33,598 nt of DNA from Thermoanaerobaculia bacterium (lineage in GTDB: Bacteria; Acidobacteriota; Thermoanaerobaculia; Thermoanaerobaculales; Sulfomarinibacteraceae): the NCBI GenBank assembly GCA_027067575.1, contig JAMOVQ010000125.1, positions 1 to 33,598 on the forward strand. Direction: 5' to 3'. Made by a program: the position numbers and the translations under genes. The notes beneath the pieces were generated by a model, which saw only the letters and a list, made by a program, of their open reading frames with translations, did not search any database and was not told the origin of the DNA. How positions within the stretch are numbered: position 1 is the first letter of the stretch; each line of letters starts with the position of its first letter. Positions 12,965 through 29,573 of this stretch are shown here, piece by piece.

Positions 12965-13767
12965 CGATGGGAACCGGTTCCCGGAGCGGACGGCAGGGGA
13001 GCCAGCGCGCCACGCCACGCGGCGGCCGTGACCACGCCGGCTCCGATGGCAAGCACGGAGACCGCCGTCCACAGGCCCCCTCCGCCCACGGGGACGAGGC
13101 GCAGAATGAGCAGCACCGTCAGCACGAGGGAGGCCCTGATGGGGATCGGCCAACCGGCCAGGCCGGGAAGGAGGCGCGTGCCCAGATGCGCCGTCAGCGC
13201 TGCAAGGCCCAGCACCTTCAGAACCAACGTCAGGACGACCAGCAGGACCACGCCCGCGGGCGCAAGCGGCCCCAGGCCGAGCACTGCGACGAGCGCCGTG
13301 AAGACGGTGAGCACCGCCACCACGCCGAGCAGCGCCGATTCCACCGAAAGGAGGTCCGGACGCCCCGCCGCACGCCGCGCCATGCCGGGGAACAGCACGA
13401 GAACGAGGTTGACGGCCAGCAGCCAGCCACCCGTCACCAAGAGCTTCAGGGCGATCCCCGTCCGGAGGGGGCACGGGCCCGGGGAACGGAGTCCCAGCCC
13501 CGCGAGCGAGCTCACGGTGACGACCCGCCCCCGGACCTCGGCCCCGGCCCTCCGATCGACACGACCCAGTACCGCCACCACGTCGCCGTCGACCCGCGCC
13601 CCGGGCTCGAGGGTCACGTTCCCCGCAACGGCCACTACGTCCCCGTCCACCGGGCCCGAGACCGTGACGTCCTCGAGAAGCGCCAGATCGCCGCCAGCCC
13701 ATCCGGAACCGGCCAGGGCCATCGCCACGAGGAGCATCGCGGCCACGGTGGACGGGCGGACCGTCAT
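12961..13767 (-). CDS. Membrane protein with N-terminal bactofilin-like repeats
   Basis: The 268-residue protein has a signal or first membrane segment (AAMLLVAMALAGSGWAGG). Residues about 32-85 contain two repeats of the DGDVVAVxGxVxxxxGAxVxGDVV type seen in polymer-forming bactofilin sheets. About six hydrophobic helices fill residues 105-255. It starts inside the stop codon of the anti-sigma gene (ATGA overlap), so it belongs to the sigma operon and may be its effector or sensor partner. A role in envelope organisation is inference only. Similar fusions of short bactofilin repeats to membrane helices occur in many uncharacterised proteins. Confidence 0.75.
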   Translation of the reverse strand: MTVRPSTVAAMLLVAMALAGSGWAGGDLALLEDVTVSGPVDGDVVAVAGNVTLEPGARVDGDVVAVLGRVDRRAGAEVRGRVVTVSSLAGLGLRSPGPCPLRTGIALKLLVTGGWLLAVNLVLVLFPGMARRAAGRPDLLSVESALLGVVAVLTVFTALVAVLGLGPLAPAGVVLLVVLTLVLKVLGLAALTAHLGTRLLPGLAGWPIPIRASLVLTVLLILRLVPVGGGGLWTAVSVLAIGAGVVTAAAWRGALAPLPSAPGTGSHR

Positions 13768-14288
13768 CGCTGGCGTGCCTCCAGGCGGCGGAGCAGCCGG
13801 CGTCCGACGAGGAGCCCCCCGAGAACGAGGAGCATGGCCCCCCAGATCACCCAGCCCGGCACCACCGATGCGAGGGCGCCCGCCGCCACGGCCACCGACC
13901 GGACCCATGCGATGGCGCCGCCCGTCAGGCCGAGGCATCCGGCCACCGCCGTCCCGGGGACCGCCGCGAGCAGCCCGCTCCCCGGAACGCCGCCGAGCAG
14001 CACCGCCGCGCCCAGCACCAGGAGAACCGACGCCGCAAGTGGAAGCAACCGGAGAAGCCGCTGCGCCCTCCGCCGCCGACCCACCGCCTCCATGATCCGT
14101 TCGGTCAGGGCGGCGTCCTCCGGCGGAAGCGCCACGGCCAGGAGCCGGGCCAGCTCGCGTTCCTGCTCCGCGGCACGGGCACACTCCTGGCACGCGCCGA
14201 GATGCCGGACGGCGTCCTCCGGCAGGGTATCGGTCCGCCCGCCGGACTCGGCGAGCAGCTCCTGGACACGCTGGCATTCCACGTTCAC
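13764..14288 (-). CDS. Anti-sigma factor with zinc-finger domain
   Basis: This 174-residue protein has the cytoplasmic anti-sigma zinc-binding pattern His29-x3-Cys33-x2-Cys36 (HLGACQEC), preceded by a Cys at position 5. After a basic segment (GRRRRAQRLLRL) come two or three hydrophobic helices between about 80 and 160. Such proteins hold the partner ECF sigma factor at the membrane until a signal releases it. The GTG start overlaps the sigma stop (GTGA) by four bases, which fixes the pairing. The sensory part is mostly membrane-embedded, so the signal is unknown. Confidence 0.85.
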   Translation of the reverse strand: MNVECQRVQELLAESGGRTDTLPEDAVRHLGACQECARAAEQERELARLLAVALPPEDAALTERIMEAVGRRRRAQRLLRLLPLAASVLLVLGAAVLLGGVPGSGLLAAVPGTAVAGCLGLTGGAIAWVRSVAVAAGALASVVPGWVIWGAMLLVLGGLLVGRRLLRRLEARQR

Positions 14289-14872
14289 CCCGGTATCCTC
14301 CCCTGGCGGTACCCCACCAGCTCTTCCCGAAGTACGGAATGGGCGCGAAAAAGTTTGTTCTTCACCGTTCCGAGCGGCATCCCCTTCAGTTCGGCGATCT
14401 CCTGGTACGAGAGCAGCGCGAAGTGGCGGAGCAGGACGAGCTCCCGGTAGTCGTCCCGCAACCCCTCGATCGCCCGCCGGAGCGCCCCCGCCAGCTCGTG
14501 GTTCTCGAGGTGGCCCATGGGATCCTTGTCTGGAGCCGGGATCGGCATGGTCTGCTCGTCCCCTTCACCCGACACGACGGTCAGCGGCGTCGTCGGCAGC
14601 TTCCGCTTCCGCAGGTGATCGATGGCGAGGTTGTGGGCGATCCGGAATAGCCAGGTGGTGAACCGGTACCGGTCGTCGAACGACGCCGCGGCACCCCACA
14701 CCCTGAGGAACACCTCCTGGGTCAGGTCCCTCGCGAGCTCCACGTCCCCGACCATCTGGACGAGGAACCCGACCACACGCCGTTGATACCGGGTGACGAG
14801 AACCCCGAACGCCACCTCGTCACCCTCCGCGGCCCTCGCGAGCAGCGCCTCGTCGCTCCGTTCTTCCGGCAC
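14285..14872 (-). CDS. ECF-family RNA polymerase sigma factor
   Basis: This 195-residue protein has region 2 (ARDLTQEVFLRVWGAAASF and TWLFRIAHNLAIDHLRKRK) and region 4 (LSYQEIAELKGMPLGTVKNK) of the RpoE-like group, joined by an acidic linker. It directs polymerase to stress or envelope promoters and is probably held by the overlapping anti-sigma gene. The start is a GTG; no ribosome site is visible, and a TGG-TACCAT element ends seven bases before it, so the transcript may be leaderless. The gene lies 57 bases downstream of the 20-haem cytochrome gene in the same direction. Confidence 0.93.
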   Translation of the reverse strand: MPEERSDEALLARAAEGDEVAFGVLVTRYQRRVVGFLVQMVGDVELARDLTQEVFLRVWGAAASFDDRYRFTTWLFRIAHNLAIDHLRKRKLPTTPLTVVSGEGDEQTMPIPAPDKDPMGHLENHELAGALRRAIEGLRDDYRELVLLRHFALLSYQEIAELKGMPLGTVKNKLFRAHSVLREELVGYRQGRIPG

Positions 14873-14929: not shown

Positions 14930-16936
14930 TCAGCCGTGACAGGTCTGGCAGAACTCGCCGGGCATCCCGCCCTCGTGACAGGTGGAGCAGGTATCCAGGT
15001 CGAGCCTGTGCTCCAGGAACAGCTCCCCATGGGTCTCGGCGAAGTCGTCCGGGTGCGGCATCTTGATCCCATGGCACTCGTTGCACTCGTCCGGCGTCAG
15101 GGCCACGCCCCCGTGGTGATCGAGCTCCGTGTGGCACGTCAGGCAGTCGATGTCGTGCTTCGCGTGGTTGGCGTGGGACAGCGCCATGCCGTGCCACTCG
15201 ATCTCCTTCGCCGGCCCGGCCAGGTGGCAGGGGGTGCACCGTTCCCGGGACTCCTTCGTATCGTGACACTGCATGCAGGTGTCGAACCCGACCTTCTTCA
15301 CCACGGTGCCCATCGTCTTCCGGAACCCCTTCGGATGCGGGAGCGGCACGCCTTCGTGACAGGTCGAGCACGCCGCCTTGCCCCAGGAGAGCTTGCCGTG
15401 GTCGGAGTACGGCGTGTGGCACGACTCGCAGTCGCCCACGGCCTCGACGTGCCTCGCGTGAGGGAACGCCGTCCCCTCGTACCGGACGGTCACAGGCATC
15501 TGGAGGTGGCACCGGGCGCACTCGTTCGCCGTCAGGCGTTTCGCATCGGCGATCCGCGGGTAGCGGGTTCCCACCTTCGCGAGGGCGAGCGCACGGTTGG
15601 CGTCCGCCACCGCACCGTCCAACAGCCTGACAGCGAAGGTGATGTTGTGCTCGCCGTGGCCGCGCTCCACCTGCCTGAGCCGTGTCGCAGCGTCGCCGAG
15701 CGCCTTCCTCGCCGCCTCGGGGATCCTCCGCCCCCGCAGGGCGCTCCGTGCACCGGAGACCGCCGAACGGGCCGCCCGGAGGTCCCGTCTCAGGATCGCC
15801 GACCACTGGTGGAGGATCCGGTCGTACCCGGGACCGTGGCAATCGTTGCACGCCTTCGCCGAGGGCTTTCGAACGTCGCCGTCGGGGCCCGTGCTCCAGC
15901 CCGAGTGGCACCCCTCGCAGTGGACGTGGACCTTCGCCATGGGGTCTGGTGCGACCTCCGACGACGGGCGGGCCGCATCCAGGCCCAGGTAGAGGCTCCG
16001 CTCGGCCTGGTGGACGTTGCGATGGCAGTCGGCACAGCTGGCGTCGTCCGCCACCGTGATCGGGTGGACCCGGTGCTCGATCGGGTGGTGGCAGAAGGTG
16101 CAGGCGAACCCGCGCCGGAGCACGTGTTCCGAATGGACCAGCTCCACATCGTCGAACTTCGCGTCGCGGTCCCCCGCCGGATGGCAGGCCACGCACCGCT
16201 CGCGGTCCACCGCACCGTCACCCCGGGTGACGTCCGCGTGGCATCCGGTGCACTCCATCTTCCGATCCACCACCATGGTGTGGTCGTACCGTGCGTCGCC
16301 CTTCAACCGGTCGGCCTCGTGACAGAGACGGCAGCGTGAGATGTCCTCCTCCCACTTGAGACCCCTGAAGTGGCAGGTCGTGCAGCTCGTCGTGTCCACC
16401 GGCTTCTCGTGGCCGTGCACGACCTGCTGGTGGCAGGTCGTGCAGGCGAGCAGGATCCCCCGTTTCTTCTGCTCCAGGTGGGAAGCGTGGGAGAACCGGA
16501 CACCGTGCCACACGACATCCCCCTTCTCGCCGAGAATCTCGGCGTGGCACCCATCCTGGGCGCACGAGCGGTTCCCCGGGAACCGGAACGCGTCCGTCGT
16601 GTGGACGCCCGTCATCCGGTCCACGATCAGCGAGATCGCCACCCCCTCCTGACGGGCCGACCCGCCGATCCCCGGCGGGAAGTGGCATTCGGAGCAGGCG
16701 ACGTCCTTGTGGCTCGACGCCGCCCAGGAGCTCGAGTATTCACCGAGCCACGGGAAGAGCCGGTAGAACCCCGGGCTCGACGTCGCCCGCAGGGCGAGCC
16801 ATCCCACGACGGCCACGATGGCGATCACGACCGCCGTACCAAGGACGAGACGCCTCAGCCGCGCCCTGTCCTGTTCCCGGTTCTCCCGCTCCTGCCCGTC
16901 GAGCTCCGAACCCCCACCCTGTGCACTCGTCTCCAT
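14930..16936 (-). CDS. Membrane-anchored multihaem cytochrome c with 20 haem sites
   Basis: This 668-residue protein has one N-terminal helix (about 30-50) and a periplasmic remainder with 19 CXXCH motifs plus one CX4CH (CAQDGCH, about 126). Eleven sites lie before a haem-free helical segment (about 370-455, containing GHGEHNITFAVRLL) and nine after it. The segment after the anchor, SSPGF...SSWAASSHKDVACSECHFPPG, reads like a NapC/NirT quinol dehydrogenase but has lost the first haem motif. The helical insert recalls those of multihaem nitrite and tetrathionate reductases; that is inference. The likely role is periplasmic electron transfer. The ATG at 16936 has GGAGG upstream; a GTG one codon earlier is too close. 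It has its own promoter at 16976-17004. Confidence 0.92.
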   Translation of the reverse strand: METSAQGGGSELDGQERENREQDRARLRRLVLGTAVVIAIVAVVGWLALRATSSPGFYRLFPWLGEYSSSWAASSHKDVACSECHFPPGIGGSARQEGVAISLIVDRMTGVHTTDAFRFPGNRSCAQDGCHAEILGEKGDVVWHGVRFSHASHLEQKKRGILLACTTCHQQVVHGHEKPVDTTSCTTCHFRGLKWEEDISRCRLCHEADRLKGDARYDHTMVVDRKMECTGCHADVTRGDGAVDRERCVACHPAGDRDAKFDDVELVHSEHVLRRGFACTFCHHPIEHRVHPITVADDASCADCHRNVHQAERSLYLGLDAARPSSEVAPDPMAKVHVHCEGCHSGWSTGPDGDVRKPSAKACNDCHGPGYDRILHQWSAILRRDLRAARSAVSGARSALRGRRIPEAARKALGDAATRLRQVERGHGEHNITFAVRLLDGAVADANRALALAKVGTRYPRIADAKRLTANECARCHLQMPVTVRYEGTAFPHARHVEAVGDCESCHTPYSDHGKLSWGKAACSTCHEGVPLPHPKGFRKTMGTVVKKVGFDTCMQCHDTKESRERCTPCHLAGPAKEIEWHGMALSHANHAKHDIDCLTCHTELDHHGGVALTPDECNECHGIKMPHPDDFAETHGELFLEHRLDLDTCSTCHEGGMPGEFCQTCHG

Positions 16937-16975
16937 CACGGCCTCCGCGGGGCCTCGCCCCCTGGTGTCGGGTGC

Positions 16976-17083: not shown

Positions 17084-20000
17084 TCACCGGTAGCTGAACA
17101 GCATGGCGTACAGGATAGCCAGGATCAGCGAGAGTCCGATCGTCAGCGCGGTGAACCCGAAGATCCGAATCCACTTGAGCTTCTTCCGGGGCATTGGCCC
17201 GGCGATCCGCGCTTCGGGCTCGCCGCTGGCCAGCAGCTGCTCGTACTCGCCCGGCTTGTCGTGTTCGAGCTCCTCCACGGGAACTCGGCCCGTGAAGATC
17301 ACCGGATCCATCGGGAACTTGTCCGGCCGGAAATGGGTGTTGAAGAAGTGGATCGTGAAGATGAACGCCACCGCCAGAAGCGCCTCGTCGCTGTGGACGA
17401 TGGTGGCCACGTTGATCATCCATCCCGGCAAGAACCGCGTGAAGAACGTCGGGAACCACAGCATCAGTCCGGTGGAGCCGATGACGAAGACGCCCCAGAA
17501 GACGGCGAAGTAGTCGAACTTCTCCCAGTAGGTCCAGCGCCCGAACCGGGGGCGCTCCCCGCGGCCGAAGAACCACCGGACGTGCTGCCAGAACTCCTTG
17601 AGATCCCGCAGGGTGAACATCATGGAATCGGGCCCGAAGATGAACTCGATCCACCCCTTGCCCGACTCCCGCTTCATCCGGAAGATCTGCCGGACATGGT
17701 AGAGGAACAGGGCGATCAGCACCACGGCTGCGAACCGGTGCAGGACGCCGGTGACCGCGAACCCGCCGAGTACATGGGAGACGGTCTTGGCCCATCCGGC
17801 GTAGGAGAACTTGAGCGTCATGCCGGTGATGGCCAGGGTGAAGAAGCTCAGCATCATCACCACGTGCATGATCCGCTGCTCCAGGGTAAACCGGACGTAG
17901 AACCGGTCCTTCTTGACCTCACGGACGTGCCGCCAGGTGCCGCGGGTGCGCCACAGGCGGTACAGCCAGAGGAGTGTGTGGAGCGTGAAGAAGACGAGCG
18001 TCCCCACGAGCAACGCGGTCATGAACAGGAAGACGAAGTAGAGGTACGGATACTTCTTCGGGTTGTGGTGAGTCGCGTGGGTCAGGTACCCGGCGAACTG
18101 GCGGTGTGCGCCCGGGTGGCAGGTCGCGCAGGTCTGGACGACGTTCTCGTACGACAGCGTCGAGCGTGGATCCTCGGGCGGCAGGATGTTGTGGACGCCA
18201 TGGCAGTCCGAGCACTTGGCCGCCCCCTCGTCGCCGAGCCTGGAGACCTTGCCGTGGACCGTCTCGAAATAGGTCTCCATCTCGGGCTCGTGACACCGCC
18301 CGCACTGCTCCATCATCATGGTCCGGAACCCCTTGACGTCGGTCCGGCTGATGGTGTGGGACGTGTGGCAGTCCTCGCAGGTCGGGAGCTTCTCGGGATG
18401 TTTCGCCCCGTTGCCCGGCCAGTGGATGCTCTTCTTGAACTCCTCCTCGATCCCCTTGTGGCAGGTGCCGCAGGTGTCGGCCAGGTGCTTCGGGTTGATC
18501 GAGGAGTCCGGATCGGACTTCGGCAGCTCCCGGTGGGCGGTATGGCAGTCGGTGCAGGTGGCCGACACCACGAGCCCCGCCTCCAGGACACCCTGACCGT
18601 GGATGCTGTCCCGGTAGCTCTGGACGATGTCGGGAACGTCCGTCTCGATCCGCTTCGCGGCCAGCCCGCCGGCGGCGTGGCACCGGCCGCACAGGTCGGG
18701 CACGTTGCGCGCGAAGGTCGGAGAGGTGGGCAGCCTGTGGCTCAGCGTCGCGTGGGGATCGTGACACGTCCGGCAGGTCGGCGCGTCGGGGTCGCCCATC
18801 GCCGCAAGCTTCCCATGGGAGCTCTTGCTGTAGTCGGTGACCACGGCGGCGTGGCAGACACTACAGTCCACGGGGTTCTCGATGGCGGCGCACGGCCGCT
18901 TGAGCGCCGAGCTGACCTCGGTGTGGCACTGGGCGCACGCTACCGTCGCGTGACTCGACGTGTTGTACCGCTCCTCGTCCACGAACAGGGAGACCGTCTT
19001 CCCATCCCGCACGACCGAGAGGTTCGGGTCGCCGTGGCACCCCATGCACTCCTTGTTCGCCACCCGGGTCGGATTGGCGGGGGCCCGCCGGATCTTGTGC
19101 GGCTGGTGGCAGTCGATGCACGCCGGGATCTTGTGAGGCGCCTCCTCCCAGAGCCGGCCCTCGATCACCTTGACGTGGACCTTCTCGATCTGGGCGTGGC
19201 ACCGCGTGCACGTCTTCGCCACGTTCTTCGGGTTGATGCTGGAGTCGGGGTCCGAGTGGTCGAGGATCAGGTGGGAGTTGTGGCACGAGGTGCAGACCGC
19301 CGTGACGGTCAACCCTTTCTTGAACAGTCCCTCACCGTGGATCGACAGCGAGTAGTTCTCCAGGATCCGGTCCTGCGGGATGTTCCGCTCCAGCGAGACC
19401 TTCGACCCCTCGTGGTGACACCGCCCGCACAGGAGCGGGACGTTCATTACGTTGGTGGGCGAAGCCGGATGCGATTTCGGAAGGATTTCGTGGTGAGAGT
19501 GGCAGGTGATACAGCTGGGCGCCAGCGGATCACCCTTGAGCGCAGCCTTTGCGTGGACGCTCCGTTTCTGCTCCGCGACCTCCTTCGGATGGCAGGCGAC
19601 GCAAATCGCCAGCTCGGCCTTCTCGTTCCGGGGCTTGCTGACGTCGTGCCCCTTGTGGCAGTCCACGCAGCTCGCCCGCGGCACGTTCTCGCCGTGGGCC
19701 CCGTGAGCGCCCCGCTCAACCTGCCGAACCTGGGCCGCGTGGCACTGTCCGCAGAGCGACTCGGCGTTGGCCGGGTTGACGGGGGACGCCGGATCGCGCG
19801 GCGGCAGGACGTCGTGGTGGCCATGGCACCGGACGCACGCCGCCGAGGCCTCGCGCCGGTCCTTCGCCCACTTTCCATGGGGACCACGGGCCAGCTCGTC
19901 CTCGACATCCTCGTGGCAGAGAACGCACCGGACCGGCTGGACCTCCTCCGCGTGCGGGAAGTCGGACCCCTCCAGGTCCGAGTGGCAGGCGATGCACATG

Positions 20001-20248
20001 AGCTCGCCGTGGGCCGAATGTGAGAACGCCTCGCCGTCGACGAAGACAGAGATCTCCTCTCCGCTCCGCTCACCGGTGAGATCGCGATCCGAATGACAGG
20101 TCAGGCAGTCGTCGTTCGTCTGCGCCAGGACGGGAACCGGGAACCCGAGAACCGCCAGGGCGAACACCACCGGCAGCAGACGGACCCATCCACGCCCTCC
20201 CCCCGGGCGATCGTGTCTCCCCACCACGCTCGTCACCTCCACCTTCAT
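17084..20248 (-). CDS. 23-haem cytochrome c fused to a membrane cytochrome b domain
   Basis: This 1054-residue protein has a signal peptide (cleavage about VLA-QT, residue 42). Residues 48-711 hold 23 CXXCH motifs in the periplasm. A membrane helix at about 735-765 leads to a five- or six-helix cytochrome b domain (790-1052) resembling formate dehydrogenase gamma/HydC, with candidate haem-b ligands His795, His837, His851, His952 and His967. The architecture matches CbcL-type quinol:cytochrome oxidoreductases of Geobacter, but with far more haems. Residues about 48-385 and 401-631 are diverged duplicates; SDPDSSINPK occurs in both. The likely role is passing electrons between quinone and periplasmic carriers. 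GGAGAGGG precedes the ATG. A terminator follows, and a promoter lies upstream at 20278-20306. Confidence 0.93.
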   Translation of the reverse strand: MKVEVTSVVGRHDRPGGGRGWVRLLPVVFALAVLGFPVPVLAQTNDDCLTCHSDRDLTGERSGEEISVFVDGEAFSHSAHGELMCIACHSDLEGSDFPHAEEVQPVRCVLCHEDVEDELARGPHGKWAKDRREASAACVRCHGHHDVLPPRDPASPVNPANAESLCGQCHAAQVRQVERGAHGAHGENVPRASCVDCHKGHDVSKPRNEKAELAICVACHPKEVAEQKRSVHAKAALKGDPLAPSCITCHSHHEILPKSHPASPTNVMNVPLLCGRCHHEGSKVSLERNIPQDRILENYSLSIHGEGLFKKGLTVTAVCTSCHNSHLILDHSDPDSSINPKNVAKTCTRCHAQIEKVHVKVIEGRLWEEAPHKIPACIDCHQPHKIRRAPANPTRVANKECMGCHGDPNLSVVRDGKTVSLFVDEERYNTSSHATVACAQCHTEVSSALKRPCAAIENPVDCSVCHAAVVTDYSKSSHGKLAAMGDPDAPTCRTCHDPHATLSHRLPTSPTFARNVPDLCGRCHAAGGLAAKRIETDVPDIVQSYRDSIHGQGVLEAGLVVSATCTDCHTAHRELPKSDPDSSINPKHLADTCGTCHKGIEEEFKKSIHWPGNGAKHPEKLPTCEDCHTSHTISRTDVKGFRTMMMEQCGRCHEPEMETYFETVHGKVSRLGDEGAAKCSDCHGVHNILPPEDPRSTLSYENVVQTCATCHPGAHRQFAGYLTHATHHNPKKYPYLYFVFLFMTALLVGTLVFFTLHTLLWLYRLWRTRGTWRHVREVKKDRFYVRFTLEQRIMHVVMMLSFFTLAITGMTLKFSYAGWAKTVSHVLGGFAVTGVLHRFAAVVLIALFLYHVRQIFRMKRESGKGWIEFIFGPDSMMFTLRDLKEFWQHVRWFFGRGERPRFGRWTYWEKFDYFAVFWGVFVIGSTGLMLWFPTFFTRFLPGWMINVATIVHSDEALLAVAFIFTIHFFNTHFRPDKFPMDPVIFTGRVPVEELEHDKPGEYEQLLASGEPEARIAGPMPRKKLKWIRIFGFTALTIGLSLILAILYAMLFSYR

Positions 20249-20327: not shown

Positions 20328-20342
20328 TGAGATTACATCTCA
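20328..20342. promoter_or_regulatory. Palindrome upstream of the 23-haem gene, possible operator
   Basis: TGAGAT-TAC-ATCTCA, a perfect 6-3-6 inverted repeat, lies about 65 bases upstream of the predicted transcription start and overlaps the stop codon of the radical SAM gene. Read on the minus strand, its GAGATGTAATC core is shared, with one change, by the region before the 11-haem operon at 29661-29671. The surrounding 60 bases are AT-richer than the rest of the window. Confidence 0.4.
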
Positions 20343-21415
20343 CCACCCCCCCCCATTGCACCCGGGTGCTTCCAGAGCCCGGGGACCGGTAGACCGCAGT
20401 CGGGGCAGGTCCCGTCCGGCCGCACGCGGTTCGAGAGCACGCGGAAGCCGTGCCGCGAGACGAGCAGCGCACCGCACGCCGAACACCGGGTGTCCTCTCC
20501 CCCCTCGATCAGCCCCGGGAGGTTCCCGGCGTAGACGAACCGGAGGCCCTCCCTCCGGCCGGTCTCCCACGCCCGCACCAGCGTCTCCGGCGGAGTCGCC
20601 CCCCGGTCGGTCACCCGGTAGTCCGGGTGGAACGCCGTGACGTGCCATGGAATGTCCGGGGAGACCGAGACGAGGAACCGTGCAGCGTCCCGGAGCTCGG
20701 CGGGATCGTCGTTGAACCCGGGCACCACCAGAGTGACCACCTCGACCCAGAACCCGGCCGAATGTGCCCGGCGAATCGTGTCCAGGACGGCGTCGAGGTG
20801 CCCGCCCAGCGAACGGTACCCCCTGGGTCTCATGGTCTTGAGGTCGATCTTCATCATGTCCATCACGGGCCGGAGGTACTCGAGCACATCGGGCGTGGCA
20901 TGACCGTTGGAAACGAACCCCGTCAGCAGCCCTTCCGGCCGCGCCCGCTTGAAGATCGACCGGGCCCACTCCGCCGTGATCAGTGGCTCGTTGTACGTCG
21001 AGACGACTGCGGCCGCTCCCGCCTCCAGAGCGGTCCGGACCAGCCCGTCCTCCGTGACGGGCTGGATCCGGGCCGTGGCCCTAGGGTCCCGAAGCGTCTG
21101 GGAGGTCAACCAGTTCTGGCAGAAAGGGCAGCGCATGTCACAGCCGAGCATCCCGAAGGAGAACGCCGCAGCCCCCGGGATGACATGGAAGAACGGCTTC
21201 TTCTCGATGGGGTCGAGCGCCACCCCCGCCGTGTACCCCCACGGAACGCGGAGTGACTCCCCCTCGCGAAAACGCACGCGGCACGCGCCGCGGCGGCCGT
21301 CCGCCAGGAGACAGCGATGGGCGCACGCCACGCACCGGAGCTTCCCCGAACGGTGCGGCCGCGCCAGCTCCGCCGAGTGCCTGGTGTACCGGTCGAGAAC
21401 AGTGCCAGCCTTCAT
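20333..21415 (-). CDS. amrS: AmmeMemoRadiSam system radical SAM enzyme
   Basis: This 360-residue protein has the radical SAM cluster motif CDMRCPFCQN (Cys92, Cys96, Cys99), an N-terminal cysteine-rich segment (CVACAHRCLL) and a C-terminal zinc-ribbon-like CSAC/CPDC pair. The blocks GVALDPIEKKPFFH, STYNEPLI and KIDLKTMRPRGY match the pyruvate-formate-lyase-activase-like branch called AmmeMemoRadiSam. Its substrate is unsettled; partners of the Memo and AMMECR1 type are not in this window. The start has GGAGGATCCG upstream. It reads toward the cytochrome cluster, with 84 bases between, which contain a separate promoter. Confidence 0.87.
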   Translation of the reverse strand: MKAGTVLDRYTRHSAELARPHRSGKLRCVACAHRCLLADGRRGACRVRFREGESLRVPWGYTAGVALDPIEKKPFFHVIPGAAAFSFGMLGCDMRCPFCQNWLTSQTLRDPRATARIQPVTEDGLVRTALEAGAAAVVSTYNEPLITAEWARSIFKRARPEGLLTGFVSNGHATPDVLEYLRPVMDMMKIDLKTMRPRGYRSLGGHLDAVLDTIRRAHSAGFWVEVVTLVVPGFNDDPAELRDAARFLVSVSPDIPWHVTAFHPDYRVTDRGATPPETLVRAWETGRREGLRFVYAGNLPGLIEGGEDTRCSACGALLVSRHGFRVLSNRVRPDGTCPDCGLPVPGLWKHPGAMGGGGEM

Positions 21416-22613: not shown

Positions 22614-24605
22614 TCAGAACTCCCTCGTGTAGAGCATGTACCGCCTGAGGATCCGTCTCGTGTAGGCCACCGCGCGGCGGCAGCGGCACACGCCGGCCGG
22701 GAAACGGCTCGCCACCTCGGGATCGTCGAGGACGAGCATGGCGGTCTCGACGTTGTCCCGCCAGCGATCGGGGTCGAGCCCCATCTCCTTCGCAAGCTGC
22801 CTGGCGTCCATCACGTGGCGCGGTCCAACGTTGTACGAGGCGATGGCCATGGCCATCCGGTCCGCGAGCGGCACGTCCGGGAAATCATCCATCAGCATCC
22901 GGAGGTACCGTGCGGCGGCCGGTATGACCTCGGCCGGATCGAACGGATCCCTGATCCCGAGCCACTGCCACGTCGCTGGCATGAACTGGAACAACCCGGC
23001 GGACCCCCCCGGCCCAACCGCCCGGGCATCGAACCGGGACTCCTCGTACATCAGCGAGGCCAGGAGCCTCCAGTCGATCCCGTACCGCAGCGCCGCACGC
23101 TTCAGTTCGGCGTCCCACGGGGTCAAGGCGTACGTCGGGATCTCCGGCAGCCGGCTCGGATGCCTGCGGCGGTGGAGCCCCAGCAGGGTTCGGGCGAGAA
23201 CGGCCAGCGTGCCGTCCCTCCGGAGCCTGCCGAGGGAACCCCGGGCCCGGCGCGCCAGTACCGGCGAGTCCACGTTGAGGACCCAGGCCAGAGACTGCGA
23301 TCTGGCGGCAACCGGCCCCTCGACGAGCGTCTGCCACTCCTGGAGCTCAAGACGGGCGAGGTCGCTGCCCACCACCGCCACATCGGCGTCGCCCTTGGCA
23401 AGCCGGGTCAGCGCGGCGAGCCCGCCCGCCCCGGCGGGGAGATCGGCCAGAACCGGCGCCGGCTCCAGCCCGAGCGAGCGGACGACCTCCGCCGCGTACC
23501 CCGCCGCAGCCACACGCCGTCCGGCCAGCTCGCCGATCCACGCGGGGCACCATTCCCCCCGCCGGCACACCACCACGAGATCCACCAGGCGGTAGCCGTC
23601 CACCACACGGAACAGTCGTCGCGCCCGCTCTTCTGCCGGCTCGTGCAGGGCCATGAGATCACCGTGCCCTTCTTCCAGCCAGTCGAGGGGGTCACTCCCA
23701 GGTGGAGGGATCGACAGCTCGAGCATCACGCCCAGGGACCGTGCGAACCGCCGGACGAGCTCGTACTCGAAGCCGCTGAGCCCGCCATGCTCCACCGTGC
23801 ACGTCACCGGGCCGTTCGTCGTGACGAGCCGCAGCCGGCGGGCCTTCCGGACCTCCCTCAGATCACGGCAGGCCGGCGGGGAGACGGCACCGCGCAGCAC
23901 GTGGCGGGCAAAGAGAAACTGATCGACGGCGGTCTTGAGCGCCGGTGCATCCGAACGGACGTACCAGGCCAGCGGCCTGCGCTCCGCCACGACCCGAACG
24001 ACGCGGATGGCATCGTCGAGGCCTGCCGCGGCCAGACTCTCCGAATCCACGACCGTCGCCTCGTACCGCCCCGAGGCCACCCTTCGGATCGCGGCGGCTC
24101 CGCACACCTCCTCGGGAAGAGGCAGCGGGGCCGGGCCGTCCCTGTTCGCAGCGAACAGATCCCAGTAGACGTTCGACCGGTGCAGGCGGACGGTAACCAC
24201 GGGGGCGTCCCGGGCCCCGCCCGCCACGAGCAGGTCATCCACCCAGCCCACGGCAGCCGTCGGCACGATCCCCTGGGCGGCGAACCCCCGTGGGGCGAAC
24301 CGCACCACGGCGATGTCTGCCCGCCCTGCCCGCAGGGCGAGGTAGACGGCATCGCACCGCCGTGGCTCGAGCCAGCGAATGGAAACCCCGAGTCGGCCCG
24401 CAAGGTGTTCGATCGCCATCTTCTGCCCGGAACCGATCCCCCCTCCAGCCGCCTCTCGCGAGAACCCCGGCCACACGGCGACCCGAAGCGTCCCCGAGCT
24501 CCTGACGGCCTCGAGATCCCGCCTCCCCCCGGAGCCGCGGCCGCACCCCGCCATCACCACGATGACCAGGACCAGGGCGACCGTCTTCCCGACATGGCGT
24601 CTCAC
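22614..24605 (-). CDS. mltF: MltF-like lytic transglycosylase lipoprotein with two solute-binding-like domains
   Basis: The 663-residue protein has a lipoprotein signal (VALVLVIVVMAGC, Cys about 21). Two periplasmic-binding-protein-3-like domains follow, opening LEAVRSSGTLRVAVWPGF and LREVRKARRLRLVTTNGP. The C-terminal SLT domain has catalytic Glu522 (YEESRFDARAVG), GLFQFMPATW and ASYNVGPRHV. It should cut peptidoglycan to leave anhydro-muropeptides at the inner face of the outer membrane. Escherichia coli MltF has one binding-protein domain; the second here is an addition. The only in-frame start is a GTG that nearly touches its GGAGG, with an in-frame stop just upstream, so initiation may be weak. 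Confidence 0.85.
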   Translation of the reverse strand: MRRHVGKTVALVLVIVVMAGCGRGSGGRRDLEAVRSSGTLRVAVWPGFSREAAGGGIGSGQKMAIEHLAGRLGVSIRWLEPRRCDAVYLALRAGRADIAVVRFAPRGFAAQGIVPTAAVGWVDDLLVAGGARDAPVVTVRLHRSNVYWDLFAANRDGPAPLPLPEEVCGAAAIRRVASGRYEATVVDSESLAAAGLDDAIRVVRVVAERRPLAWYVRSDAPALKTAVDQFLFARHVLRGAVSPPACRDLREVRKARRLRLVTTNGPVTCTVEHGGLSGFEYELVRRFARSLGVMLELSIPPPGSDPLDWLEEGHGDLMALHEPAEERARRLFRVVDGYRLVDLVVVCRRGEWCPAWIGELAGRRVAAAGYAAEVVRSLGLEPAPVLADLPAGAGGLAALTRLAKGDADVAVVGSDLARLELQEWQTLVEGPVAARSQSLAWVLNVDSPVLARRARGSLGRLRRDGTLAVLARTLLGLHRRRHPSRLPEIPTYALTPWDAELKRAALRYGIDWRLLASLMYEESRFDARAVGPGGSAGLFQFMPATWQWLGIRDPFDPAEVIPAAARYLRMLMDDFPDVPLADRMAMAIASYNVGPRHVMDARQLAKEMGLDPDRWRDNVETAMLVLDDPEVASRFPAGVCRCRRAVAYTRRILRRYMLYTREF

Positions 24606-24733
24606 CCTCCAACTCTAACCCGGACCGGCCTCCACCTCCGCCCCCCGCCGGCGCCTTCGCCCGAAAGGGACACTCCCCACTGTGGAACCAGAGACCGTGA
24701 GACCGTTGCCGTGATGCGTCCGGCCTCCCGGGG

Positions 24734-24762
24734 TTGAAGGTGGACGAGCCGTGTGGTATCTT
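24734..24762 (+). promoter_or_regulatory. Sigma70-type promoter of the tRNA-Gly and bactofilin unit
   Basis: TTGAAG (24734-24739), 17-base spacer, TATCTT (24757-24762), with a TGG just before the -10. The predicted start is about 5 bases before the mature tRNA. Confidence 0.65.
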
Positions 24763-24774
24763 CCGATCGCCCGA

Positions 24775-24850
24775 GCGGGCATAACTCAGCTGGTAGAGTG
24801 TCAGCTTCCCAAGCTGAAAGTCGCGGGTTCGAATCCCGTTGCCCGCTCCA
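24775..24850 (+). tRNA. tRNA-Gly (anticodon CCC)
   Basis: The cloverleaf folds fully: acceptor GCGGGCA/TGCCCGC with discriminator T, D-stem ACTC/GAGT, anticodon stem TCAGC/GCTGA with loop TTCCCAA (anticodon CCC at 24808-24810), T-arm GCGGG-TTCGAAT-CCCGT with the last pair a G-T wobble. CCA is encoded, unlike the CAU tRNA at 2674. It reads GGG codons. Confidence 0.95.
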
Positions 24851-24881
24851 TTCTTCGAACCGTCCGCCTCGGAGTTGCAGC

Positions 24882-25412
24882 ATGGGCCTCTTCGGCAAAC
24901 CCAGAAACCCGGCTCCTCCGAAGGTACCGGACCACGAACCCGGCAGGCCGGTGGCATCCGGGGGTTCCCGTCCGTCCGGGACACCAGCATCCACGACCAT
25001 CGTTGCCCGCGGCGGTGAGATCGAGGGACGGATCGCCGGTGAGGCCGGGGTCCGGGTCGAAGGCCGCGTCACCGGGGAGATCAAGTCGTCAGGCGCCGTC
25101 GTGGTAGCCAGCGAGGGAACCGTCCGGGGCGACGTGCACGGGCTGGTCGTCACCGTTGCCGGTTCCGTCGAGGGCAACGTCTCGGCGGCCGAACGGGTTG
25201 AGCTCGCCCCCGGTGGAAACCTCGTGGGCGACATCATGGCACCACGGGTTCACATCGCCGAGGGAGCGATGTTCGAGGGTCAGGTGCACATGCAGAAGCG
25301 TACGGATCGCGCCAAGCCTCCCCGGAACGATGGAGCCACATCGGGTTCGAAGGCCAGCTCCACCCGAGAGGCCCGCCGTCGCGGCAACACGGGGGCCGGG
25401 AGGAACTCCTGA
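24882..25412 (+). CDS. Bactofilin (polymer-forming cytoskeletal protein)
   Basis: This 176-residue protein has the bactofilin beta-helix core at about residues 36-135, seen as repeated short units such as [19 protein letters not shown] and [20 protein letters not shown]. Flexible Pro/Gly-rich N-terminal and basic Ser/Arg-rich C-terminal tails flank it, the normal layout. Bactofilins polymerise without nucleotide and scaffold cell-wall enzymes or DNA-segregation proteins at the membrane. The ATG at 24882 has GGAG upstream. The gene begins 31 bases after tRNA-Gly and appears to share its promoter. A murein transglycosylase is the divergent neighbour, which fits a cell-wall context. Confidence 0.92.
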
Positions 25413-26995: not shown

Positions 26996-27478
26996 TCACT
27001 GCCCCATCATCTTCTTGGCCAGCTCCTCGTTCTTGAACTCGTGGAGAGCCGCCTTGTCGTTGACCTTCTCAGCGAACACGACCTTGTGGGAGTGGTCGTC
27101 CCCGGTGTGGCAGCCGTCGCACGTGGCCTGGGTGACGTCCTTGAGGCCGTTGGCCTTCGCCTTCTCGAGATCCCGCATCACGCTCATCTTCTTGTACGCC
27201 GAACCGGGGCCGTGGCACGCCTCGCACTGCACGCCAGGAAGGTTCTCGTCGGCGTTGGTCGCGTGGCACTTCAGGCAGCTCGCGTCGTACGGCCGCCCCT
27301 CGGCGCCCTTCTTGGCGATCTCGGTGGCCTTGGCGTGATGGGTCTCCATCCAGGAGTTGTACTGGACCTTGTGGCACATCTTGCACTTCTGGGCCCCGAC
27401 GTAGGTCGGCCCGTCCGCCAGGGCCACACCGGCCAGCGCCACGGCCACGATCCCCGTCGCGATGATGAACTTCTTCAT
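26996..27478 (-). CDS. Tetrahaem cytochrome c, c554-like
   Basis: The 160-residue protein has a signal peptide (FIIATGIVAVALAGVALADG, cleavage about residue 21) and four CXXCH motifs: CKMCH, CLKCH, CEACH and CDGCH. The opening of the mature protein, YVGAQKCKMCHKVQYNSWMETHHAKA, is the signature of the cytochrome c554 family first known from ammonia oxidisers and common in metal and sulfur respirers. It is probably a soluble periplasmic electron shuttle. The C-terminal 25 residues are Lys/Glu-rich. AGGAGG precedes the ATG. It has its own promoter at 27529-27557 and lies just downstream of the cytochrome b gene, a likely partner. Confidence 0.93.
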   Translation of the reverse strand: MKKFIIATGIVAVALAGVALADGPTYVGAQKCKMCHKVQYNSWMETHHAKATEIAKKGAEGRPYDASCLKCHATNADENLPGVQCEACHGPGSAYKKMSVMRDLEKAKANGLKDVTQATCDGCHTGDDHSHKVVFAEKVNDKAALHEFKNEELAKKMMGQ

Positions 27479-27528
27479 TCGAGCCTCCTTTCGAAAGGGT
27501 TCCCCACGTGACCCCTCTCTGTCATGAG

Positions 27529-27557
27529 AGTGTAACCGACCTTCCCGCCTCCGGCAA
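27529..27557 (-). promoter_or_regulatory. Sigma70-type promoter of the tetrahaem cytochrome gene
   Basis: On the minus strand, TTGCCG (27552-27557), 17-base spacer, TACACT (27529-27534). This allows the small cytochrome to be made in excess of the upstream membrane complex. Confidence 0.65.
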
Positions 27558-27561
27558 CGCC

Positions 27562-28347
27562 TCAGTAGCGAACGGTCTCGATCGCCACCGGAACGGCCCG
27601 GAGCCAGACGACGAAGCCGATGGCCGCCAGGACGATGACCGTGGCGATGCCGATGAAGATGAGGAACTTCTTCGTGTCGATCGGGGCCGGCTCAGGCCTC
27701 ATGCCCGCCATCAACTCGGCGAACTCCTTCGGATGCTCCTCGATGTACAGCTCTTTCGGGAGCTTCCCTGTGAACATCGACGTGTTCCAGTGCTTCCAGT
27801 GGACGAAGTACGAGTGCCACGTGATGATCGCCAGCGCCGCCAGCGTGGCCTCGCCGCCGTGGGCCGCCTTCGCCGCCAGGATGAACTGGCCTGGAACGAG
27901 CTGGGCGAATCGGACCGGGTAGAGCATGATGATGCCCGTGGCAACCATCAGAAACGTCCCCCACACCAGGGCAAGGTACTCGAGTTTCTCCGGCCAGGAG
28001 TACCGTCCGTACTGGGGCTCGTGTGTCACCAGGCCAAGGTTGTATCGGATGTGCTGGACGAAGTCCTTCGCATCCTGGAGTGTGGGAAGGAGAACCGGAG
28101 GCAGCTTCCGGAGCCAGAGGAACCAGATCAGCTCCAGGGCGTGGTAGACGAGCTGGAGCGCCATGATCGTCCCGAGGAGGTGGTGGACGAAACGCATCCT
28201 CGAGACCCCGCCGAAAATCAGCACGACACCCTTGGCCCAGCTGGCGCTCGGGAACTTCTGTGGAAAACCGGTAATGACCAGCCCGGTGAAGGTAATCAGC
28301 ATGACGAGATGACCGATGATGTGCCGGCGCTCGAAACGGCGGATCAT
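27562..28347 (-). CDS. Membrane cytochrome b subunit
   Basis: This 261-residue protein has five or six hydrophobic helices and the His pattern of the formate dehydrogenase gamma/HydC cytochrome b group: His9 and His13 in RRHIIGHLVML, His pairs in RFVHHLLG and LVYHALEL, and AAHGGEATLA with ITWHSYFVHWKHW near the end. It clearly matches the C-terminal domain of the 1054-residue fusion protein; both end in FTG(K/R)(L/V)P followed by an acidic tail and one more helix. It should exchange electrons with quinone and pass them to the 11-haem subunit encoded upstream, whose stop codon overlaps its ATG (ATGA). Confidence 0.9.
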   Translation of the reverse strand: MIRRFERRHIIGHLVMLITFTGLVITGFPQKFPSASWAKGVVLIFGGVSRMRFVHHLLGTIMALQLVYHALELIWFLWLRKLPPVLLPTLQDAKDFVQHIRYNLGLVTHEPQYGRYSWPEKLEYLALVWGTFLMVATGIIMLYPVRFAQLVPGQFILAAKAAHGGEATLAALAIITWHSYFVHWKHWNTSMFTGKLPKELYIEEHPKEFAELMAGMRPEPAPIDTKKFLIFIGIATVIVLAAIGFVVWLRAVPVAIETVRY

Positions 28348-29573
28348 GACTCACCTCCGTGCCGCCTGCGGTTGACCCTGGTCCGGTAGACGTCCGTGCC
28401 GATGAAGAACAGGAAGAATCCGATGGTCCCCGGGATGATGATCTTGTAGAACAGGTTCACGTAGTAGATCCACGGGTACTGGTCGGGACTCGGAACGTAG
28501 TGGCTCGTCCACGCCGAGAGGAACTTCGGCGTCGCCGCCGGGTGGCACCGCTGACAGTGCTTGAGCAGGTTCTGCTCGATCTGCTTGCGGCCCTGATCGT
28601 GGACGGCGTAGACGTCGTGGTAACCGTGGCAGTCGTAGCACACCGCCTGGTTGAGCGGCTGGTCCGGCGTGACCTCCTCGAACAGCTCGGCCGTCGTCCC
28701 ATGGAAGTCCGCGACGTAGGTGGAGAACACCTCTGTCGAGAGCCCGTACTTCGACATCATCGCCTCGTTGGCGTGACACCTCCCGCAGAGCTGCGGGCTG
28801 GAGGCCCGGAACCGCGGGCTTCTCGGGTTCGGCGTGGCATGGGGCTCGTGACAGTCGACGCACGTGGGGACGTCCGGGTTGTCGTCGGCCATCAGCGCCG
28901 CGCCATGCACACTCTCACGGTACTGCTGGGCGATGCGGGCGTGACACCGGCCGCAGGTGAACGAGATCTGGCGCCGGGCCGTTCTCGCGTTCGCGTCCGT
29001 CGTCTTCTGGATGTCGTGGCCACCGTGGCAGGAGATACACGTGGCCGATCCGATGATCCCGCCGAGCTCGACACCCTGGCCGTGAACCCCGTTGAGGTAC
29101 TCGGCGTTGGTGTGGCACTTCAGGCAGATCCTGCTGACGTTGTACGGGTGCAGAGGCGACCGCTGGTCGGTCGGCGGGTAGATCCCGTGGGCCCCGTGGC
29201 AGTCCCAGCACTGCACCTTGAAGCTGCTCCCGCCGGTCGGATCCCGGTGGACCGAGTTGTTGAGCTGGTCCACGACCCCCTGATGGCACTCGACGCACGG
29301 GTTTGCCAGACGCGTCTCCGCCGGATGGGGGAACCTGGTGATCGCGACGTGGCAGTCGGCGCAGACGAGCCCCATGTGGGACGGGCATCCGCCCTGTGCG
29401 ACCGTCAGCGCTGCAACTTGCGTGTCGTCGAGCTCCTTGCCGATGGCCTGCCCCGCCACCCTCAGGGTCGCCGGGTCACCATGGCAGGACAGGCAATCGA
29501 GATCCTGTCCGGCAAAGACCGGAAGCGCCAGCGCTGCGGCAAGGAGCGGGATCACGAATCTCTCGGCTCGCAT
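28344..29573 (-). CDS. 11-haem cytochrome c with C-terminal membrane anchor
   Basis: The 409-residue protein has a signal peptide (IPLLAAALALPVFAG, cleavage about residue 22) and 11 CXXCH motifs, then one C-terminal helix (NLFYKIIIPGTIGFFLFFIG). Its end, CQRCHPAAT...YPWIYYVNLF, aligns with residues about 707-745 of the 23-haem fusion (CATCHPGAH...YPYLYFVFLF), just where the fusion enters its membrane domain. It and the overlapping cytochrome b gene therefore look like a split version of the fusion protein. The likely role is electron transfer between quinone and periplasm. The ATG at 29573 has GGAGGGACGT upstream; an in-frame start nine codons earlier lacks one. Confidence 0.93.
   Translation of the reverse strand: MRAERFVIPLLAAALALPVFAGQDLDCLSCHGDPATLRVAGQAIGKELDDTQVAALTVAQGGCPSHMGLVCADCHVAITRFPHPAETRLANPCVECHQGVVDQLNNSVHRDPTGGSSFKVQCWDCHGAHGIYPPTDQRSPLHPYNVSRICLKCHTNAEYLNGVHGQGVELGGIIGSATCISCHGGHDIQKTTDANARTARRQISFTCGRCHARIAQQYRESVHGAALMADDNPDVPTCVDCHEPHATPNPRSPRFRASSPQLCGRCHANEAMMSKYGLSTEVFSTYVADFHGTTAELFEEVTPDQPLNQAVCYDCHGYHDVYAVHDQGRKQIEQNLLKHCQRCHPAATPKFLSAWTSHYVPSPDQYPWIYYVNLFYKIIIPGTIGFFLFFIGTDVYRTRVNRRRHGGES

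Follow-up and report, generated by a model that had tools for sequence, protein, structure and literature searches.

The closest described counterparts of the locus analysed here are the quinone-linked modules of Geobacter sulfurreducens, which include a fused form, CbcL (9 c haems plus a di-haem cytochrome b), and a split form, CbcBA (a heptahaem c subunit plus a PF01292 cytochrome b) (PMC9129911, PMC12307469, PMC7726332). The two coexist in this organism and are used at different low potentials (PMC12307469, PMC7726332), with CbcBA being required near -0.2 V (PMC12307469). CbcL has six helices (PMC9129911), and a 2018 listing recorded CbcL/MtrH/MtoC homologues, with 3-23 CX2CH motifs, in 15 phyla (PMC6295460). 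A cell that combines a fused with a split module thus belongs to a kind already known.

The window examined here, the whole of a contig of 33,598 bases from a genome totalling 3.08 Mb, holds such a combination, with the two modules about 7 kb apart on the same strand. Judging by named relatives, it belongs to the class Thermoanaerobaculia of Acidobacteriota (80% identity to L120). Judged against published descriptions, the CbcL family and the fusion in the window both carry a multihaem c domain, an anchor and a di-haem cytochrome b on one chain with six helices (PMC6295460, PMC9129911); CbcL has 9 c haems, however, whereas the fusion has 23, along with an eight-haem internal repeat and a 19-haem partner gene. 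CbcBA (Cbc5), by the same kind of descriptive comparison, shares with the split module a separate membrane-bound c subunit and a PF01292 cytochrome b in a cell that also has a fused form. CbcA has 7 haems, whereas the split module has 11, a further 4-haem cytochrome after the b gene, and its nearest kin outside the class in Chloroflexota. We did not find published descriptions of the eight-haem repeat, of the re-split 19-haem pairs or of the exchange of a 19-haem partner reported below. With a probability of roughly 0.78, we consider both modules to be quinone:cytochrome c oxidoreductases of the inner membrane, of the same kind as CbcL and CbcBA, and ancient paralogues with a putative division of labour.

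The split module (26996-29573) consists of three genes on the minus strand and, as in CbcBA-type systems, places an anchored multihaem c subunit beside a PF01292 cytochrome b. The c subunit is a periplasmic 11-haem c-type cytochrome (28344-29573; 409 aa, 11 CXXCH) with a Sec signal, Pfam matches to Cytochrome_C7 and Cytochrom_c3_2, and a C-terminal membrane anchor. Hydropathy places the anchor helix at residues 374-396 (28386-28454); in the AlphaFold model of this protein (pLDDT 85.8) the region is a helix spanning residues 367-404, and it matches fusion residues 733-769. The stop TGA of the 11-haem gene and the start ATG of the b gene share a four-base ATGA, read directly from the sequence at 28344-28347, and an identical overlap occurs in 4 other genomes of the window's family; a Shine-Dalgarno-like GGAGG precedes the ATG of each of the two genes. 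The b subunit itself (27562-28347; 261 aa; PF01292, E=3.7e-10) is FdnI-like with two putative b haems, and is followed by a periplasmic 4-haem c554-like cytochrome (26996-27478; 4 CXXCH; PF13435), a gene that comes after the split b gene in 11 of 15 such loci.

The fused module centers on a 23-haem/cytochrome b fusion of 1054 aa (17084-20248, minus strand), orthologues of which are present in most genomes of the window's family. Its first 12 haem motifs (19106-20107) form the N-terminal part, its last 11 (18116-19048) are in register with the 11-haem protein, and these are followed by an anchor helix predicted from hydropathy at residues 738-756 (17981-18037) and a cytochrome b domain at residues 786-1050 (17099-17893; Foldseek match to 1kqf_C, E=1.7e-4). 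Three features of the CbcL/MtrH/MtoC family are found in this protein: 23 CX2CH motifs at the N-terminal side, within the range of 3-23; about six C-terminal helices, with hydropathy peaks at 738, 793, 831, 914, 948 and 1032; and conserved transmembrane histidines as predicted b-haem ligands, H795, H837, H851, H952 and H967 being present in 42 of 42 fusions. The structure model of the full-length fusion is of low confidence (pTM 0.47). Downstream lies a 19-haem cytochrome with an N-terminal anchor (14930-16939, minus strand; 19 CXXCH), which is likely the electron partner of the fusion. Directly downstream of the 19-haem gene, an ECF sigma factor (14285-14872) and a possible anti-sigma factor (13764-14288), both on the minus strand, are encoded and could regulate the fused module. 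On the other side, 84 nt upstream of the fusion, is a radical SAM enzyme of the AmmeMemoRadiSam system (20333-21415, minus strand), a homologue of which is likewise found upstream of the fusion in two relatives (L048 and L050).

With respect to the b domains, a two-row b profile found FdnI of formate dehydrogenase N (1kqf_C) in the PDB, and the b domain of the fusion model aligns with this chain at a target-normalised TM-score of 0.77 (Foldseek). Five histidines of the split b protein (H13, H55, H69, H163 and H178) are invariant in an 18-row alignment, and four of these, H13, H55, H163 and H178, align with the four haem-b histidines of FdnI, positions that we take to be its haem ligands. The fold and these four histidines are thus common to FdnI and the b domains described here, which differ from FdnI in having the extra invariant H69 and in pairing with a multihaem c protein, whereas the partner of FdnI is an iron-sulfur subunit. 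By hydropathy, each module has six predicted helices, five of them in its b part and the remaining one in its c part.

A preliminary description of this DNA had proposed that the 11-haem and cytochrome b genes reproduce the layout of the fusion, namely a multihaem domain, one helix and a cytochrome b, and our alignments bear this out: the split pair matches the last 11 haems, the anchor and the b domain of the fusion, with homology throughout the 11-haem domain. The match of the 11-haem protein, originally placed at its C-terminus against fusion residues 707-770, is in fact far longer, extending over residues 26-402 against 400-769 (28% identity, E=3e-47), and the cytochrome b aligns with the fusion's b domain along 253 aa at 30% identity (E=1e-39). 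Hydropathy also agrees that the split point falls between the anchor helix (374-396, or 738-756 in the fusion) and the b domain. Each of the 11 haem motifs in the 11-haem protein has its counterpart, in register, among the final 11 of the fusion. Moreover, the match to fusion haems 18-23 stays at E ~1e-16 once the motif Cys and His residues are masked, and the top score among 200 motif-keeping shuffles was 53 bits, as compared with 161 observed.

This match is offset by 12, 10, 8, 2, 0 and -2 in fusions that carry 23, 21, 19, 13, 11 and 9 haems, respectively, which indicates that the 11-haem unit is always membrane-proximal and that haems are gained or lost at the far end. Within the window's fusion, haems 8-12 repeat haems 16-20 at an offset of eight (44% identity, E=8e-23, motifs masked), and an eight-haem offset gives the best internal repeat in all 19 fusions examined that have 19-23 haems (35-48% identity, motifs masked). 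A MAFFT alignment hinted at two in-register 11-haem units, but with the strongest repeat offset at eight we prefer the eight-haem reading. The fused acidobacterial lineage would then have combined an 11-haem arm with an eight-haem repeat to reach 19 haems, and subsequently 21 or 23.

The relationship between the two modules was examined in 60 relatives together with 297 genomes sampled from the phylum, among which three groups recur, and in a b-domain tree of 92 sequences. Group A, to which the window's fusion belongs and whose members carry 9 to 23 haems, is mostly fused and forms a clade of 65 b domains (support 100/100), 45 of them fused and 20 split. Group B, the window's split form, is always split and joins Chloroflexota and other split kin in an all-split clade of 19 (support 100/94); group C consists of fused 11-haem proteins. 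A tree uniting the window's fused group with B is rejected (delta lnL 145, p-AU 1e-49). The split and fused modules of this cell are ancient paralogues: with their b domains in separate deep clades and the joining tree rejected, neither module arose recently from the other. The suggestion that the window's own pair illustrates how a fusion, or a fission, arises consequently does not hold. A recent duplication with fission or fusion within the lineage is a scenario to which the identical layout, the distance of 7 kb on one contig and an ATGA overlap removable by a small change lend some appeal. We regard it as extremely improbable, however, given b domains that are 30% identical and lie in different deep clades (AU p=1e-49), and a split 11-haem protein that is closer to many Chloroflexota 9-haem proteins (42-46%) than to the clade-A split 11-haem proteins (~30%).

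In terms of the split lineage, the nearest kin of the b subunit outside the class are 9-haem/b pairs of Chloroflexota, all of which are split. The 11-haem protein tells the same story, being 42-46% identical to many Chloroflexota proteins and about 30% identical to the split 11-haem proteins of acidobacterial clade A. The nesting of group B among Chloroflexota in the tree suggests a possible transfer from that phylum, but a tree holding Chloroflexota as a single clade is not rejected (p-AU 0.157). Plasmid searches were empty or marginal. Within the window's family, group B is found in 5 genomes and group C in 11 (plus 2 fragments), never together, a pattern with few independent events behind it. 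In many b proteins of the Chloroflexota loci (L133-L199), the b domain is followed by haem motifs, of which L193 has up to ten; this b-then-haem order is the opposite fusion topology, and some of these loci have two c/b pairs in tandem. A further Acidobacteriota module type, in which two b genes surround an 8- to 11-haem gene together with a 15- to 18-haem cytochrome, was seen at L287-L290, L101 and L108-L112.

Fission is nonetheless visible elsewhere in the fused clade. In four genomes of one family (f20; L242, L245, L248 and L249), a 19-haem protein ends just past the anchor helix and is followed by a separate b gene. These four pairs nest inside the fused 19-haem clade (100/100), with the cut in the same linker and the anchors intact; the alternative to this nesting is disfavoured (delta lnL 56), at an AU support that is modest (p-AU 0.03) and for a group named after inspection of the tree. 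The stop/start junctions vary, two sharing a reading-frame overlap and the others reading TAG-ATG and TGATG, and this variety argues against sequencing error. The tree thus indicates that fission happened within the fused clade in this one family. A single origin for all split forms in clade A is rejected (p-AU 0.002). By these sequence comparisons, the junction breaks repeatedly in the predicted cytoplasmic linker, as expected from the topology.

From the observed homology and haem register, the phylogeny, the fission seen in a relative and the gene neighbourhoods, we infer a mode of action that covers quinol binding, flow direction, partners and division of labour. Quinol oxidation, with the electrons delivered to periplasmic cytochromes, is the most likely role of the two modules, as for CbcL and CbcBA of Geobacter. 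The b part, with five helices and two putative b haems, would take electrons from membrane quinol; these would cross from the b haems to the c haem closest to the anchor and then move outward along the c haems. The periplasmic acceptor would be the 4-haem cytochrome for the split module and the 19-haem cytochrome for the fusion, and the onward route would probably be an outer-membrane MtrA/MtrB-like conduit encoded elsewhere in the genome. Outside the window, the genome has genes for a decahaem cytochrome of the GSU2203 family and an MtrB/PioB-like porin of the GSU2204 family, a pair that plausibly forms this conduit. Because a haem-copper oxidase is encoded as well, the split and fused modules may not be the main respiratory route. 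At L202 (G000:C94, 8128-10356, minus strand), a GSU2204-family MtrB/PioB-like frame crosses one TGA that coincides exactly with the end of the NCBIfam model NF041027, which covers part 1 of a known selenoprotein family. A tRNA-Sec candidate (78.7 bits) and SelA are present in the genome, so the TGA is probably a selenocysteine codon.

The modules might instead run in the opposite direction and, as MtoC does in Fe(II) oxidisers, draw electrons from donors in the periplasm or outside the cell to reduce quinone. CbcL/MtrH/MtoC homologues occur in organisms that oxidise Fe(II) as well as in those that reduce Fe(III), and direction is revealed by no sequence feature (PMC6295460); we hold this reading to be unlikely. 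Slightly less so, though still improbable, is service to periplasmic reductases or detoxification instead of extracellular acceptors. The haem domains give NrfB- and DmsE-like matches, and a weak fold similarity links the 11-haem model to hydroxylamine oxidoreductases. Against this, ten non-motif histidines are kept in 28 of 28 eleven-haem rows of the alignment, and H358, a candidate for the eleventh ligand, has a frequency of 46%, which is the share of the window's clade. Together, these residues suggest bis-His, six-coordinate haems throughout the 11-haem domain, and hence a wire that lacks a catalytic haem rather than an enzyme. The presence of putative outer-membrane conduit genes likewise favors extracellular acceptors. 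Catalysis resembling that of hydroxylamine oxidoreductase was itself considered and set aside: the TM-score of this sole notable fold match is just 0.33, a similarity that we read as shared haem packing, and neither the fold nor the five-coordinate haem of the octahaem enzymes was found.

A 19-haem homologue follows the fusion in 3 genomes (the window's, L048 and L050) and sits with a split module in two others (L104 and L101), both of which are without a fusion. This placement beside either module type, depending on the genome, hints at interchangeable use. In its strongest form, the split and fused modules would be interchangeable entries to one 19-haem periplasmic wire, with the fusion arm, lengthened by its eight-haem repeat, reaching the conduit without a diffusible carrier, an arrangement that we consider doubtful at best. 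If true, one quinol pool would supply both a fixed wire, through the fusion, and a shuttle route, through the split module and its 4-haem carrier.

The preliminary description had also held that the modules are separately regulated, which is plausible in view of the opposite-strand genes that lie between them. A promoter scan performed at chance level and identified no promoter. Also between the modules is a tRNA-Gly (ccc; 24775-24850, plus strand), opposite a predicted open reading frame (24602-25237), and a tRNA-Met (cat) is found at 2674-2747 on the plus strand. The accompanying proposal, that the two modules are used with different acceptors or redox potentials, fits the Geobacter precedent, and by analogy with that organism two modules would let the cell oxidise quinol against acceptors of differing potential.

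Taken together, these observations connect a lineage of uncultured acidobacteria with the quinone-linked electron transfer through multihaem proteins that is known from Geobacter. The family offers a natural series, from 9 to 23 haems and fused, split or re-split at one linker, for probing the role of fusion and of haem number. Moreover, at least two modules are present in 77 of the 147 Acidobacteriota genomes that have any such domain, and these frequent pairs of distantly related modules would carry over to another phylum, in a testable manner, the concept from Geobacter of quinol oxidases that are each specific to a potential.
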